12,912 bases of DNA, taken from positions 1-12,912 of the forward strand of contig JACPHL010000239.1 in NCBI GenBank assembly GCA_016188625.1, written 5' to 3'. The first letter of the stretch is position 1; every line of letters starts with the position of its first letter. Positions 3,550 to 12,912 of this stretch are shown piece by piece. The notes under the pieces are model-generated. The model did no database searches. It had not been told where the DNA came from and worked only from the letters and a program-made list of their open reading frames with translations. The stretch comes from Candidatus Rokuibacteriota bacterium. GTDB taxonomy: Bacteria > Methylomirabilota > Methylomirabilia > Rokubacteriales > JACPHL01. Both the position numbers and the translations under genes were made by a program.

Positions 3550-4710
3550 ATGTCATCAACGGGAATCAGGGCCCTGGAGGTCGGGGGCCGGGGCGCGCGG
3601 TCGGCCGGCGCCGGGGACGGGGCCAGCTACCGGGTCCTGATGTACAGCCACGACTCGTTCGGGCTCGGCCATCTCCGCCGCTGCCGCGCCATTGCCCACG
3701 CCCTCGTGGAGCACCACAAGAAGCTGAACGTGCTGATCCTGAGCGGGTCGCCCATCATCGGGCGGTTCAGCTTCCGGGCGCGGGTGGATTTCGTCCGGGT
3801 GCCGGGCATCATCAAGCTTCGCAACGGCGATTACACGAGCCTGAGTCTTGACGTGAACATCGAGCACACCCTGGCCCTCCGCGCGTCGATCATCGAGCAC
3901 ACGGCGCGGGTCTTCAACCCCGACCTGTTCCTGGTGGACAAGGAGCCGCTGGGCCTCCTGGGGGAGGTCAGGAAGACCCTCCACATGCTCAAGCGCCGCG
4001 GCGGCTGCCGGCTGGTGCTGGGGCTGCGCGACATCATGGACGACCCGGGCCTCCTCGCCGAAGAGTGGCGGCGCAAGCGCGTCATGCCCGCCCTCGAACG
4101 GCTGTACGACCATATCTGGATCTACGGCCTGCCGCAGATCTACGACCCGGTCAGCGCGTACCGGTTTCCCGCGAGCGTCGCGGCCAAGGCCGCCTTCACC
4201 GGCTATCTCCGGCGCGAGCCCCAGGCCGAAGCCTACCTCCCTCACGAGGTGGCCACCGCCATCCAGGGGGGGCCCTTTCTCCTGGTGACTCCGGGCGGGG
4301 GCGGGGACGGCACCGAACTCGTGGACGCCGCCCTTTCCGCGTACGAACGCTTCAACGGCCGGCTGCCCTGGCCGGCCCTGATCGTCTACGGACCGTTTCT
4401 GCCCGCGCGCCAGCGGGCGGCCTTCGAGCGACGGGCGGCGCGGCTCAAGCGGGTCACGACCCTCACCTTCCACGAGCACCTGGAAAACCTGATGGAGCGG
4501 GCGGCGGCGGTGGTCTGCCTCGGCGGCTACAACACCTTCTGCGAGGTTCTCTCCCTCAACAAACGGAGCCTCATCGTGCCCAGGGTGACGCCCCGCGCCG
4601 AACAGCTCCTGCGCGCCACCACCGCGCGGGAGCTGGGCCTCGTCCAGGTCCTCCTGCCGGAGCAGCTCACCCCGGAGACGCTGGCGGCGGCCATCATGCG
4701 GCTTCCCTAG
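3550..4710 (+). CDS. MurG-like glycosyltransferase (COG4671/GT28-type), ending at an in-frame amber codon
   Basis: This is a predicted cytoplasmic, membrane-associated glycosyltransferase with two Rossmann lobes, like MurG. The sugar donor and acceptor are unknown. The N-lobe opens at residues 28-48 with YSHDSFGLGHLRRC, the GLGH loop typical of this group. The C-lobe has TPGGGGDGTEL (247-257), then the family block GGYNTFCEVLSLNKRSLIVP (325-344) and TPRAEQLLRA (347-356), which is the donor-binding region. The ATG at 3550 is preceded by GGAGAGG (3534-3540) at 9 nt. The gene stops at a TAG (4708-4710) after 386 residues, but the same frame stays open for 38 more codons and resembles the missing C-terminal tail. 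It is the first gene of a four-glycosyltransferase operon and a paralogue of the last one (7339-8601). All catalytic-core motifs lie before the TAG, so the short form might still work. Confidence 0.88.
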   Translation: MSSTGIRALEVGGRGARSAGAGDGASYRVLMYSHDSFGLGHLRRCRAIAHALVEHHKKLNVLILSGSPIIGRFSFRARVDFVRVPGIIKLRNGDYTSLSLDVNIEHTLALRASIIEHTARVFNPDLFLVDKEPLGLLGEVRKTLHMLKRRGGCRLVLGLRDIMDDPGLLAEEWRRKRVMPALERLYDHIWIYGLPQIYDPVSAYRFPASVAAKAAFTGYLRREPQAEAYLPHEVATAIQGGPFLLVTPGGGGDGTELVDAALSAYERFNGRLPWPALIVYGPFLPARQRAAFERRAARLKRVTTLTFHEHLENLMERAAAVVCLGGYNTFCEVLSLNKRSLIVPRVTPRAEQLLRATTARELGLVQVLLPEQLTPETLAAAIMRLP

Positions 4711-4827
4711 CAGGCCCTGCCCGCGAGCAACCGGATCCCCGGTCTCCTGGAGGGGCTCAAGAACATCAACGCCACGGTGTCCCGGTGGCAGGCGAGGCGG
4801 GAGGCGCGGCCCCGGGCCCTCGGGTGA
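4711..4827 (+). other. in-frame continuation of the first glycosyltransferase beyond the amber stop (lost C-terminal tail)
   Basis: Directly after the TAG, 38 sense codons run in the same frame to TGA (4825-4827). Thirty-seven of the 38 end in G or C, as expected of real coding DNA here. The peptide begins QALPASNRIPGLLEGLKN, which resembles a COG4671 C-terminal helix. The paralogue at 7339-8601 also extends about 50 residues past the matching point. The TGA forms GTGA with a GTG at 4824, in frame with the next gene. The same 4-nt overlap joins the other genes of this operon, which suggests 4827 was the original end. Confidence 0.6.
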
Positions 4828-4889: not shown

Positions 4890-6176
4890 ATGCTCGTCGT
4901 CCTGGTCAAGGGCTACCCTCGGGTCTCCGAGACCTTCATCGCGCAGGAGATCGCCGCGCTCGAGCGCCGCGGCGTGAGCCTCACCATCGTCTCCATGCGG
5001 CGGCCGTACGACCGGATCACCCATCCCGCCCACGGCCAGATCCGGGCCCCTGTGCTCTATCTCCCGGAGTACGTGCTCGACGCCCCCCTCAGGGTCCTGG
5101 CCGGCCACGCGAGGGCGCTCAGGGAGGCGCCCCGCCGGTACCTGGCGAGCCTGGGGCTCTGGCTCCGCGACCTCGTTCGCGACCCGACGCCGAGCCGCGT
5201 CAGGCGGTTCGCTCAGGCCGGGGTCCTGGCCGCCGAGCGGCCTCCGGGCTCCCGCCACTTCCACGTGCATTTCCTCCACACGCCCGCCTCCGTGGCGCGC
5301 TACGCGGCCGCCATGGGGGGCCTCTCCTACAGCGTCTCGGGCCACGCCAAGGATATCTGGACGCGCCCCGGGTGGGAGCTTCGCGAGAAGATCGAGGGCG
5401 CGCGCTTTGCCGTCACCTGCACCGCCCAGAACCGGGAGTACCTGAGGCGACTCGCTCCGGGGGCCCGGGTGGAGCTGATCTACCACGGCCTCGACCAGCG
5501 CTTCTTCGGCCCCCCGCCGGCCTTCGGCTCCTCGCGCGACGGATCGGAGGCGGCCGATCCGGTCCGACTGCTCTCGGTGGGGCGCTTTCAGCCCAAGAAG
5601 GGGGTCGACCTGGTCCTCCGGAGCCTGGCTCGACTCCACGCGCACGCGGTGCTGACGCTGGTTGGCTACGGGCCGCTGGAGGGCGAACTCCGGGCCCTGG
5701 CGCGGGAGCTCAGGGTGGAGGGCCGCGTGACCTGGCGCGGACCGCTGGACCAGCCCGCCGTGCGGGCGCTCTACCGCGAGAGCGACCTGTTCGTCCTGGC
5801 CCCGCGCATCGCGGCCGACGGCGACCGGGACGGGCTGCCCAACGTGGTGGTCGAGGCCCTCTCCCAGGCCCTCCCCGTGGTGGCCACCCGCGTCTCGGGC
5901 CTGCCCGAGATCGTCGAGGACGGCGTCAACGGGCGGCTCGTACCTCCGGAGGATCCGGCGGCGCTGGCGGCCGCCCTGGCAGAGCTCGTGGGGGATCCCG
6001 AGGCGCGCCGACGCTACGGGGCGGCGGCCCTCCGGCGGGTCGCCGCGGGCTGGGACGTCGAGGCCGGGGTCAGCCGGCTGGTGGCGCTTCTGGCCGAGGC
6101 GATAGACGAAGCCGGCGCCGCCCGAGGGCGCCCGCAGCCCTCGAAGACGACGGCGGGCGCGCTCCCCCGTCCATGA
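4890..6176 (+). CDS. GT4 family glycosyltransferase, colanic-acid/exopolysaccharide type (WcaL-like)
   Basis: This is a predicted retaining glycosyltransferase of the GT-B fold that moves a sugar from a nucleotide donor to a growing surface glycan. The 428-aa product begins LVVLVKGYPRVSETFI, the usual start of exopolysaccharide GT4 enzymes (KxYPRxSETFI). The donor-binding half has LLSVGRFQPKKGVD (227-240), GYGPLEGEL (259-267), and DGDRDGLPNVVVEAL (310-324) in place of the EX7E block. SGLPEIVEDGVNGRLV (336-351) is the classical GT4 C-terminal motif. The ATG at 4890 has GAGG 5 nt upstream and matches the family start. A GTG at 4824 in the same frame would add 22 low-complexity residues; it forms GTGA with the read-through stop of the previous gene and remains possible. 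The end overlaps the next gene as ATGA. The last 20 residues are disordered. Confidence 0.92.
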   Translation: MLVVLVKGYPRVSETFIAQEIAALERRGVSLTIVSMRRPYDRITHPAHGQIRAPVLYLPEYVLDAPLRVLAGHARALREAPRRYLASLGLWLRDLVRDPTPSRVRRFAQAGVLAAERPPGSRHFHVHFLHTPASVARYAAAMGGLSYSVSGHAKDIWTRPGWELREKIEGARFAVTCTAQNREYLRRLAPGARVELIYHGLDQRFFGPPPAFGSSRDGSEAADPVRLLSVGRFQPKKGVDLVLRSLARLHAHAVLTLVGYGPLEGELRALARELRVEGRVTWRGPLDQPAVRALYRESDLFVLAPRIAADGDRDGLPNVVVEALSQALPVVATRVSGLPEIVEDGVNGRLVPPEDPAALAAALAELVGDPEARRRYGAAALRRVAAGWDVEAGVSRLVALLAEAIDEAGAARGRPQPSKTTAGALPRP

Positions 6177-7342
6177 GCGAGCCACGGCCCGCGGCGGCCT
6201 TCTACACCCCGCTGAAGCACCCATTCCAGCCCGAGGCCTCCGGCGATCGCGAGATCGCGCGGGCCCTCCTGGACGCACTCCGGGGGGGCGGGTTCGAGCC
6301 GGGGCTGGCCAGCCGGCTATCCACGTGGCGGCGGGAATTCGAGCCAGGCGTCGCGGAGCGCCTCGATCGCGCGGCGGCGGTGGTCGTCCAGACGCTGATC
6401 CGTCGCTTCCGGGGACGTCCGCCAACCCGGAGGCCCCGCTTCTGGATGACGTACCAGAACTACCACCGGTGCCCCGACCTCCTGGGGCCCGCCGTGGCCT
6501 CGGCGCTCGAGATCCCGTACGTCCTCGTGGACACGGCGGTCTCGACGCGGAGCCGGCGGACGCCGTTTCGACCGTGGGTGAGCGCGGCCCGCCTGGCCCT
6601 CCGGCGGGCGGACCTCGTCTTTGCCATGAGCCCGCGGGATGTCCCGCGCATCGCCCGCCTCCGGGGCGCCCGGTTCGCCGAGCACCGCCTGCTCCTCCTC
6701 CCGCCGGCCGCGGACATGGCGCGGTTCGACGTCCCGGGCCGCGTACGGGCCGCCTGGCGGACGGAGCTCGCCCGGCGATTCGCCCGTCCTGACGGTCCCC
6801 TCTTCCTCTGCGTGGCCATGATGCGGGAAGACAAGCTCGACTCCTACCGGCTCCTCGCCGACGCGCTCGGTCACCTCCTCGCCGAGACGCCCGGGCGGCC
6901 CTGGCGGCTCCTGCTCGTCGGGGATGGTCCCGCCCGGCCGAAGGTGGAAGCCGCCTTCGCCTCCCTTCCTCCTGACCGGATCTGCCTCCTGGGGGCGCTT
7001 CAGCCGGAGGCGCTGGCCACACCGTACCTGGCCGCCGACATCTTTGCCTTCCCCGGCCTCGGTGACGCCCTTGGCCTCGTCTACCTGGAAGCGGCGGCGG
7101 CCGGACTTCCCGTCGTGGCCTGCCAGGGCCCGGGTCCCGAGGTCATGGTGCCCCAGGACGGCGGGCTCCTCACCGCGCCGACGCCGGAGGCGTTCGCGGC
7201 GGGACTCCGAGACCTCCTGGATGACCCGCTCCGGCGCCAGCGGATGGCCGAGGCGGCTCGCCGCTTCGTGGCCACCGAGCGGACGAAGGAGGCGTTCCAC
7301 CGGCGGCTCGCGGAAGGACTCGGACGCCTGGGGCTGACGTGA
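6173..7342 (+). CDS. GT4 family glycosyltransferase
   Basis: This is a second predicted GT4 glycosyltransferase, 389 aa, cytoplasmic. The N-terminus FYTPLKHPFQPEASGDREIA (10-29) resembles a group of GT4 enzymes that begin with FYxPLKxP...PSGDRxxAR, known to me mainly from Alphaproteobacteria. That recollection was not checked. The C-lobe shows LFLCVAMMREDKLDSY (210-225), RLLLVGDGPARPKVE (245-259), and GDALGLVYLEAAAAGLPVVA (297-316), in which D298 and E306 take the place of the EX7E pair. GGLLTAPTPEAFA (330-342) follows. The ATG at 6173 overlaps the previous stop as ATGA and is the only start that avoids reading through the upstream gene; earlier in-frame Met codons (from 5372) are rejected. 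The end overlaps the next gene as GTGA. Donor and acceptor are unknown. Confidence 0.9.
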   Translation: MSEPRPAAAFYTPLKHPFQPEASGDREIARALLDALRGGGFEPGLASRLSTWRREFEPGVAERLDRAAAVVVQTLIRRFRGRPPTRRPRFWMTYQNYHRCPDLLGPAVASALEIPYVLVDTAVSTRSRRTPFRPWVSAARLALRRADLVFAMSPRDVPRIARLRGARFAEHRLLLLPPAADMARFDVPGRVRAAWRTELARRFARPDGPLFLCVAMMREDKLDSYRLLADALGHLLAETPGRPWRLLLVGDGPARPKVEAAFASLPPDRICLLGALQPEALATPYLAADIFAFPGLGDALGLVYLEAAAAGLPVVACQGPGPEVMVPQDGGLLTAPTPEAFAAGLRDLLDDPLRRQRMAEAARRFVATERTKEAFHRRLAEGLGRLGLT

Positions 7343-8601
7343 ACCGGCCCCCGATCCTTTTCTACTGCCAGCACCTGCTCGGGCTCGGTCACCTGCAGCG
7401 GGCGGTGATCCTGGCCCGCGCCCTCGTCGGGGCCGGCGAGCGGGTCGTCTTCGTGACCGGGGGGCTTCCCGTGCCGGGCCTGAACCTGGGGGGCGCCGAG
7501 GCGGTGGCGCTCCCGCCCCTCACCTCCGCGGACGATGCCGCGAGCAGCTTTGCCCTCCCGGACGGGAGCCCGCCCGACGAGGGCTACCTGGCCGACCGGC
7601 GGGAGCGCCTCCTCGCGTCGCTCGCCCGGTACGACCCGGGCGTCGTCCTCCTCGAGCTTTTCCCGTTCGGCAGGCATGCGCTCGCGTTCGAGCTGGCGCC
7701 CCTCCTCCTCGCCATTGCGGCGGACCGTCGCCGGCGTGGACGAGCGGCGCCCCAGGTCGCTGTGAGCCTGAGAGACATCCTGGTGGGCAAGAAGAACCAG
7801 GCGTGGTACGAGCTCGCCGTGGTGGCCGCCGTCAGACAGTGGGTCGACCGGGTTCTGGTCCACGGGAGCCCCGATCTGATCCCGCTCTCCCGCACCTTCG
7901 GCCTCGCCGACCGGCTGGCCGACCGGCTGGTCTACACGGGCTACCTCGCTGCCCCCCGCGCTCCGTCCGGGGAAGGCGCCCCCAGGGGCGAGGTGGTGGT
8001 CTCCGGCGGGGGCGGCCGCGTCGCCGCCGCGCTCTTCCTCACGGCCCTGGCCGCGCGTCAACTCTGCCCGGCGGCCGCGGCCCTCCCGTGGCGCCTGCTC
8101 ACCGGGCCGTACCTGCCCGGCGAGCTCCGGGCCGACCTCGAGGCGGTGGCCGCACGGCTCGGGGGGCCGCCGGGGCGGCCGGCGGTGGTCGTGGAGACCT
8201 TCAGGGACGACTTCCCCGCGCTCCTCGGGCGGGCCGCGCTCTCGATCAGCCAGGCGGGATATAATACCGTGCTGGACGTGGTCGCCAGCGGCGTGCGGGC
8301 GGTGGTGGTGCCCTTCGAGGGGAGCGGTGACGAGCAACCGCTCCGGGCCCGGGTCCTGGCCGAACGGGGCGTCCTCAAGGTGGTCGGGGAAGCGGAGCTC
8401 TCGCCCGCCCGGCTCGGCGAGGCCATCGAGGCCGCGCTGACCACTCCCGGCTTTCCGGCCGCGTCGTCGCTCGACGTGAAGGGCGCGGCCCGATCCGTGG
8501 AGATCCTGACAGGGCTGGTGGACGGGGTGGCCGCCACCAGGCAGCGCGGGGGAGGAGGCTCGCGCCGGACGGCCCGGGCTCAGCCCGCCCGGCGGCGGTA
8601 G
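7339..8601 (+). CDS. MurG-like glycosyltransferase (COG4671/GT28-type), second copy
   Basis: This is a 420-aa paralogue of the first gene of the operon, again with a MurG-like two-lobe layout. ILFYCQHLLGLGHLQRA (6-22) carries the GLGH loop. VSLRDILVGKK (142-152) matches the GLRDIMDD region of the first copy. VVVSGGGGRVAA (219-230) and SISQAGYNTVLDVVASGVRA (302-321), then VVVPFEGSGDEQPLRA (322-337), form the nucleotide-sugar site. The start is GTG at 7339, overlapping the previous stop as GTGA. The last 20 residues are Gly/Arg-rich and probably disordered. Residues 190-197 (ADRLADRL) are encoded by a perfect 12-nt tandem repeat. The 3' end overlaps the convergent methyltransferase gene by 22 nt. 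The two COG4671 copies differ enough to act on different acceptors. Confidence 0.9.
   Translation: MNRPPILFYCQHLLGLGHLQRAVILARALVGAGERVVFVTGGLPVPGLNLGGAEAVALPPLTSADDAASSFALPDGSPPDEGYLADRRERLLASLARYDPGVVLLELFPFGRHALAFELAPLLLAIAADRRRRGRAAPQVAVSLRDILVGKKNQAWYELAVVAAVRQWVDRVLVHGSPDLIPLSRTFGLADRLADRLVYTGYLAAPRAPSGEGAPRGEVVVSGGGGRVAAALFLTALAARQLCPAAAALPWRLLTGPYLPGELRADLEAVAARLGGPPGRPAVVVETFRDDFPALLGRAALSISQAGYNTVLDVVASGVRAVVVPFEGSGDEQPLRARVLAERGVLKVVGEAELSPARLGEAIEAALTTPGFPAASSLDVKGAARSVEILTGLVDGVAATRQRGGGGSRRTARAQPARRR
7906..7929 (+). repeat. perfect 12-nt tandem duplication inside the second COG4671 glycosyltransferase
   Basis: GCCGACCGGCTG occurs twice in a row and keeps the frame, giving the peptide repeat ADRLADRL. 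It lies in the linker after the GLA segment, before LVYTGYL. It looks like a recent in-frame slippage event. Confidence 0.8.
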
Positions 8602-11912: not shown

Positions 11913-12912
11913 TCAGAACAGGGCCATCTGCTCGGAGGTCGGGGCCTGGGCCCGCGCCTCGCCGAAGAGGCGGATGACGCCGTAGACCCCGTCGTACCCC
12001 GGGGTGATGGTGAGCCGCCCCTCCCGGACCCGCCGGATCCCCTCCAGCACCCGGGGCTGGGTGAAGCGGGCCAACTCCTCCGGGGGAAGGTCGACCCGCC
12101 CTGCTCGAGCAGGCGAAGGTGCTCGGCCTCCACGGCCGCGGACTCGGCGCCGAGCCCGAGGGCCTCGGCGATGATCTCGGCGAGGGGGACGAGGTGGCGG
12201 GCGGGGACGGCGCCCGGCGGCCGGAAGCCCTCCGGGCGGTCCGCCAGGGTCTCCACGCGGTGCATCACGCCCACGGTCAGCGGCTTGCCGCACTCCGGGC
12301 AGCGGCCGCGCGCCCGTCGGGTCTCGGCCGGCGCGAAGAGGACTCCGCACGCCCGGTGGCCGTCGAAGTGGTACTTCCCCTCCTCCGGGAAGAACTCGAT
12401 GGTGAAGAGGAACCGGGCCGGGTCCTTGGCGCGGATCGCCTCGAGGACCGCCGGGTAGGTGAGCTCCGTGTCGAAGACGTTCGCCTCGCGGGCGATCCGC
12501 TGGGGCGAGTGGGCGTCGGAGTTGGAGAGGAGCGCGATCCGGTCCAGGGCCGACCACCGCCGGTTCATGGCCGGGTCCGAGGAGAGCCCGGTCTCGATGG
12601 CGTGGATGCGCGGGGCGAGGTCCCCGTAGCACTCCTCGAGGCTGTCGAAGCCGGAGTTGGCCCCGAAGATCGAGTACCAGGGCGTCCAGGCGTGGGCCGG
12701 GACGAGAAAGCACTCCTCCGAGACCTCGAGCACCGCCTCCGCCAGCTCCCGGGCCGACAAGCCGAAGGTGGGGCGCCCGTCGGCGGAGAGCTTCCCGAAC
12801 CGGCCGAGGGCCAGGTTGATCCGGGCGGCCACCTCGAAGGAGGGGGCGAAGAGGAGGGTGTGGACCCGCCGGAGTCGCCCGCCCTGGGTGAAGACGTTCG
12901 AGACCTCCACGG
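11913..12912 (-). CDS. EndoQ-family DNA endonuclease (PHP domain), N-terminus missing, with a frameshift near the 3' end
   Basis: This is an EndoQ-like PHP-domain endonuclease, the family that nicks DNA 5' of deaminated bases (uracil, hypoxanthine, xanthine) and abasic sites. The gene runs off the right edge, so roughly the first 90-100 residues are missing. From 12910 the visible frame starts EVSNVFTQGGRLRRVH. It includes PAHAWTPW (71-78), ETGLSSDPAMN (106-116), LLSNSDAHSP (128-136), IEFFPEEGKYHFDGH (171-185), the zinc-type C188/CPECGK (C204, C207) and VMHRVETLADRPEGF (215-229). At codon 272 (GGG, 12097-12095) the frame breaks. Reading on from GTC at 12095 in the other frame gives 60 residues, including ITPGYDGVYGVI, the family's conserved end, and a final SEQMALF. 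The unshifted frame runs to 11885 with an Arg/Pro/Ser-rich tail. Confidence 0.88.
   Translation of the reverse strand, partial: RGGLERLHPGRATPAGPHPPLRPLLRGGRPDQPGPRPVREALRRRAPHLRLVGPGAGGGGARGLGGVLSRPGPRLDALVLDLRGQLRLRQPRGVLRGPRPAHPRHRDRALLGPGHEPAVVGPGPDRAPLQLRRPLAPADRPRGERLRHGAHLPGGPRGDPRQGPGPVPLHHRVLPGGGEVPLRRPPGVRSPLRAGRDPTGARPLPGVRQAADRGRDAPRGDPGGPPGGLPAAGRRPRPPPRPPRRDHRRGPRARRRVRGRGGRAPSPARAGRVDLPPEELARFTQPRVLEGIRRVREGRLTITPGYDGVYGVIRLFGEARAQAPTSEQMALF
12095..12101 (-). other. frameshift site in the EndoQ gene
   Basis: The minus strand reads GAG CAG GGC GGG TCG here. One additional G in the GGG run (12097-12095) would join the upstream frame to GTC GAC CTT, which encodes VDLPPEEL and then the conserved C-terminus. 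The two halves fit with neither gap nor overlap, so a single missing base is the simplest reading. No slippery heptamer for programmed -1 shifting is seen. Confidence 0.75.

Follow-up and report, generated by a model that had tools for sequence, protein, structure and literature searches.

The glycosyltransferase gene described here ends, as assembled, at a TAG codon that very probably reflects a single-base nonsense change, recent or artefactual, in a gene encoding a full glycosyltransferase of 425 residues. The TAG lies 38 codons ahead of the gene's normal end. The tail beyond it is homologous to that of related proteins and conserved, the stop is missing from the relatives, and the searches for recoding machinery came up empty. 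The gene belongs to an operon in the window, by which we mean the whole stretch of DNA analysed (12,912 nucleotides, contig JACPHL010000239.1 of a Candidatus Rokuibacteriota bacterium). The features discussed below are as follows.

3550..4710, + strand: GT-B glycosyltransferase of the Glyco_tran_28_C type; in the assembly it has 386 codons and stops at the premature TAG
4708..4710, + strand: in-frame TAG at a variable alignment position, where the one close orthologue has E (GAG) and Q is the most frequent residue elsewhere
4711..4827, + strand: 38-codon C-terminal tail and the original stop TGA (4825-4827); modeled as the final GT-B helix (residues 402-423)
4890..6176, + strand: next operon gene, a GT4-type glycosyltransferase (Glycos_transf_1), with the GTG at 4824 as another possible start
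7339..8601, + strand: distant paralogue (Glyco_tran_28_C), intact, which overlaps the gene before it through a GTGA

Read from the sequence and its translation, the open reading frame runs from the ATG at 3550 to the TAG at 4708-4710 and encodes 386 amino acids. Beyond the TAG, 38 sense codons follow in frame up to the TGA at 4825-4827, and all but one of them (ggt) carry G or C in the third position. An earlier sequence-only reading had described exactly this arrangement, down to the 37 G/C-ending codons, and was accurate. Could the tail be an open frame by chance? This was rejected, since its 38 codons align with the C terminus of every relative and with an orthologue that is about 81% identical.

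The relatives come from a scan of bacterial and archaeal genomes with the 386-residue part as the query. It gave 80 proteins, 55-63% identical and mostly from Alphaproteobacteria and other Proteobacteria. Every one of the 80 extends past the TAG position, nearly all by 38-66 residues, and every one matches a tail pattern of the kind PS....PGLLDGL. In an alignment of 81 relatives, P391 and G402, both beyond the stop, are invariant, and Q388 is present in 77. The TAG column itself is variable but sense throughout (Q 35, R 10, S 8, D 5, N 5, H 4, others, and E 1), with a stop in 0/81. Had the homologues of the clade all ended at this point, the sequence-only reading would have fallen; quite clearly they do not, as the 80 relatives and the close orthologue all run through. 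One homologous frame, from about position 153 of locus L070 in Rhodospirillaceae ARS31, is 824 residues long with a GT4-like domain at its end; the two operon genes appear to be fused there, whether in nature or by the assembly.

Within the class, a close orthologue was seen only in genome G058 (82% identical), which belongs to another family of the same order; the next best matches in the order are 34-40% identical. This orthologue, 80-82% identical, has no stop and sits in a largely collinear region of about 72-80% DNA identity. The codon opposite the TAG is GAG, one base change away from TAG, and CAG, which encodes the glutamine most common at this column in the family, is also one base away. 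A "TAG inside" flag raised for a further genome, G059, was discarded, its TAG being located in the leader ahead of the gene's start. Proteobacterial relatives, at 55-63% identity, lie above the 34-40% of the order members outside G058, and this comparison of sequence identities suggests that the gene or the operon may have been horizontally transferred.

How old might the change be? Against the orthologue, dN/dS is 0.145 for the body (359 codons), 0.156 for the 60 codons immediately upstream of the TAG, and 0.16 for the first 26 codons of the tail, in which there are zero second-position differences. Conservation is poor in the final 11 codons of the tail, in this comparison as in the whole family. 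Thus, the first 26 tail codons are constrained like the body, so that the change is either recent or not real. No decay beyond the stop is visible in these 26 codons, and such a tail would be expected if the stop is recent, if the cells do not carry it at all, or if it is read through. As a bound on age the tail is weak, for 26 codons are compatible with a TAG dating from the later part of the lineage.

What does the tail contribute to the protein? The enzyme carries the Pfam Glyco_tran_28_C domain and a GT-B fold. It had been called MurG-like, a name that holds at the level of the superfamily but not for MurG itself, as the MurG equivalog model TIGR01133 was not among its matches at E values up to 0.001. 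An AlphaFold2 model of the read-through form has a mean pLDDT of 80.9. Its last helix spans residues 402-423, with blocks at 391-410 scoring 83-90 and the last few residues low. No solved structure related by sequence was found; the best structural match of the model is the macrolide glycosyltransferase 2iya (Z 27.8, rmsd 3.6, 347 residues). The alignment with solved GT-B enzymes reaches about residue 417, so that the part lost is the terminal helix. In GT-B enzymes, this helix packs across the two domains. That the tail corresponds to the C-terminal helix of the family, as proposed earlier, is thus borne out by the alignment of relatives, the modeled helix, and the match to GT-B structures. 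Judging from the model, the truncated product is probably inactive or unstable, which would amount to a loss of function.

Two further arguments had been drawn from the neighboring genes. The first was that the TGA would form a GTGA overlap with the next gene, in the junction style of the operon. A GTG at 4824-4826 does overlap the TGA, in the frame of the next gene, and a GTGA junction is present at 7339-7342. However, the ATG at 4890 is the better-looking start of the next gene (MLVVLVKGYPRVSETF), and GTGA is absent from the equivalent site in G058. Since the next gene could start at either codon and the orthologous junction lacks GTGA, the argument is weak. The second concerned the paralogue at 7339-8601, which does run past the same point, though its resemblance is weak (30% identity overall).

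In the explanation we favor, one base change would have turned a sense codon into TAG in a gene that until recently encoded, or in real cells still encodes, 425 residues. Under the ordinary code, the ribosome would halt at the UAG with RF1 and release a 386-residue product lacking the last helix. This product would probably be unstable or inactive, and the next gene may be coupled less tightly. The TAG would most likely stem from a consensus error or a strain-level allele in a metagenome-assembled genome, and no second, longer functional product need be assumed. TAG is also the form that a random nonsense change is expected to take, since 70% of the one-base nonsense changes predicted from the codon usage of the genome are TAG. 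Of the four possibilities listed in the sequence-only reading, a sequencing error, a polymorphism between strains, and a recent nonsense mutation jointly explain all the observations, and amber read-through is unsupported. Set against the favored explanation is the incompleteness of the genome (84%), whose missing part could hold a suppressor tRNA.

Is this the only broken gene in the assembly, an 84%-complete draft of metagenome type with 344 contigs and 2.6 Mb? It is not, and because other conserved genes are broken in the same assembly, a consensus error or strain-level nonsense allele fits well. (i) One of the genome's 68 ABC ATPase matches has an in-frame TAG (C160:2449). (ii) prcA, encoding the proteasome alpha subunit (L159, G000:C93, 19834, + strand), is broken by a TAA where the solved homologue has Tyr, although the sequence matches TIGR03691 at 327 bits across it. 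(iii) On the gene's own contig, a TIGR00375-type gene (11916-12910, minus strand) is split over two frames that change near 12080-12110; when the two are fused, they score 132 bits against the profile instead of 106, and the match extends to the last position of the model. This frameshift rests on the family profile, since no relatives of the gene were found in five order members. The mixture of TAG, TAA, and frameshift fits base-level errors or scattered null alleles, not an amber-specific mechanism. Stops were found in 0/17 AMP-binding matches of this genome and in none of about 155 listed ABC domains of two relatives. The interrupted ATPase (L155, G000:C160, 2449, + strand) is a UrtD/LivG-like domain in one open reading frame with a second ABC ATPase domain; directly upstream, at about 1740 on the + strand, lies a permease that appears to be frameshifted. 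A codon-usage Viterbi frameshift scan made 8.6 calls per 100 kb of coding sequence here versus 5.9 in isolate controls, a rate so near that of the controls that most calls must be false positives; the raw count is therefore not used, and homology-backed cases alone are cited. Same-frame resumptions after a stop (L141, L143, L156, L157, L184, L191, and others) were also set aside, most of them looking like ordinary neighboring genes.

Might the 386-residue form instead be a functional truncation, selected in this lineage? The Glyco_tran_28_C match and most of the invariant residues do precede the stop. Yet no relative ends at the TAG, the part removed carries the invariant P391 and G402 along with the GT-B terminal helix, and the tail is without decay. 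We regard a selected truncation as very unlikely.

Read-through of the amber codon would have the UAG sometimes read as glutamine or another amino acid, yielding a short and a long enzyme. It would agree with the constraint that persists in the tail and with the C directly after the UAG. A UAG followed by C is a relatively leaky context. The tail constraint, however, is explained by recency alone, and the stop is not conserved, being absent from all 81 relatives at a variable column. As for machinery, RF1 is intact (517 bits, no internal stop), and no tRNA with a CTA anticodon is present among the 29 tRNA loci found by ARAGORN in the 84%-complete genome, all with ordinary anticodons. Pyrrolysyl-tRNA synthetase exceeds the TIGR02367 cut-off in 0/59 genomes of the order, this incomplete one included. 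In a sample of 60 contigs (0.64 Mb) of the genome, TAG ends 126 of 487 clear coding frames (26%) and is thus an ordinary terminator. Overall, the genome gives no hint that an amino acid is inserted at the stop, and the proposal of two protein lengths made by read-through finds no support and is highly improbable. Narrower, and a shade less credible again, is the idea that a lineage-specific leaky amber codon might give two glycosyltransferase lengths, with and without the terminal helix, that tune activity or coupling to the next gene.

That TAG has been reassigned to an amino acid, genome-wide or as pyrrolysine, is scarcely conceivable: a second conserved gene, the ABC ATPase, does have an in-frame TAG, but TAG normally terminates about a quarter of the coding frames beside an intact RF1, none of the 59 genomes of the order passes for the pyrrolysine enzyme, TAA is what breaks a third conserved gene, and 67/68 ABC and 17/17 AMP-binding matches have no stop. 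An alternative-code screen of 250,000 genomes names no case under Methylomirabil- or Rokubacter- (PMC8629427).

Two other genes of this genome have an in-frame TGA and are candidate selenoproteins. The first (L163, G000:C130, 6483, + strand) is a peroxiredoxin-like open reading frame whose TGA aligns with a Cys of the solved relative 2ywn (FLPA-TGA-EADL versus FTQVCTKEM). The second (L185, G000:C110, 4393, - strand) is AhpD-like, with the TGA at the second Cys of a CxxC-like motif (HQCHY-TGA-VRFH); (seleno)protein families are among its NCBIfam matches, at scores under their cut-offs. A tRNA-Sec with a TCA anticodon is encoded in the genome at C273. Read-through of TGA is plausible in both candidates. 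A literature search on selenoproteins in Rokubacteria returned nothing useful, and neither did one on premature stops in metagenome assemblies.

Taken alone, the interrupted gene has little significance, but it serves as an example of how in-frame stops in draft metagenome assemblies can be vetted, namely by looking at whether relatives are intact, how often each stop is expected from codon usage, which tRNAs and release factors are encoded, and whether further genes of the assembly are broken.

How does the case compare with known systems? As an enzyme, it resembles GT-B proteins of the GT1/GT28 kind (2iya and the MJ1255-type proteins of TIGR00661) in its Glyco_tran_28_C domain and in fold through the C-terminal helix, but it scores under the curated cut-offs of TIGR00661 and TIGR01426 and, as assembled, lacks the last helix. 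With systems in which UAG is reassigned to Gln (genetic code 15) or to pyrrolysine, it shares an in-frame TAG that interrupts a conserved gene where relatives often have Gln. It differs from them in that RF1 is present, TAG is a frequent terminator, neither a CTA tRNA nor PylRS was found, and the few in-frame TAGs occur alongside an in-frame TAA. With consensus errors of metagenome-assembled genomes, strain-level nonsense alleles, and pseudogenes of recent origin, it shares a lone in-frame stop that one base change separates from a sense codon, orthologues that are intact, a sequence past the stop that shows no visible decay, and scattered broken genes, and it differs from them in no tested feature. 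The phenomenon is an ordinary one.
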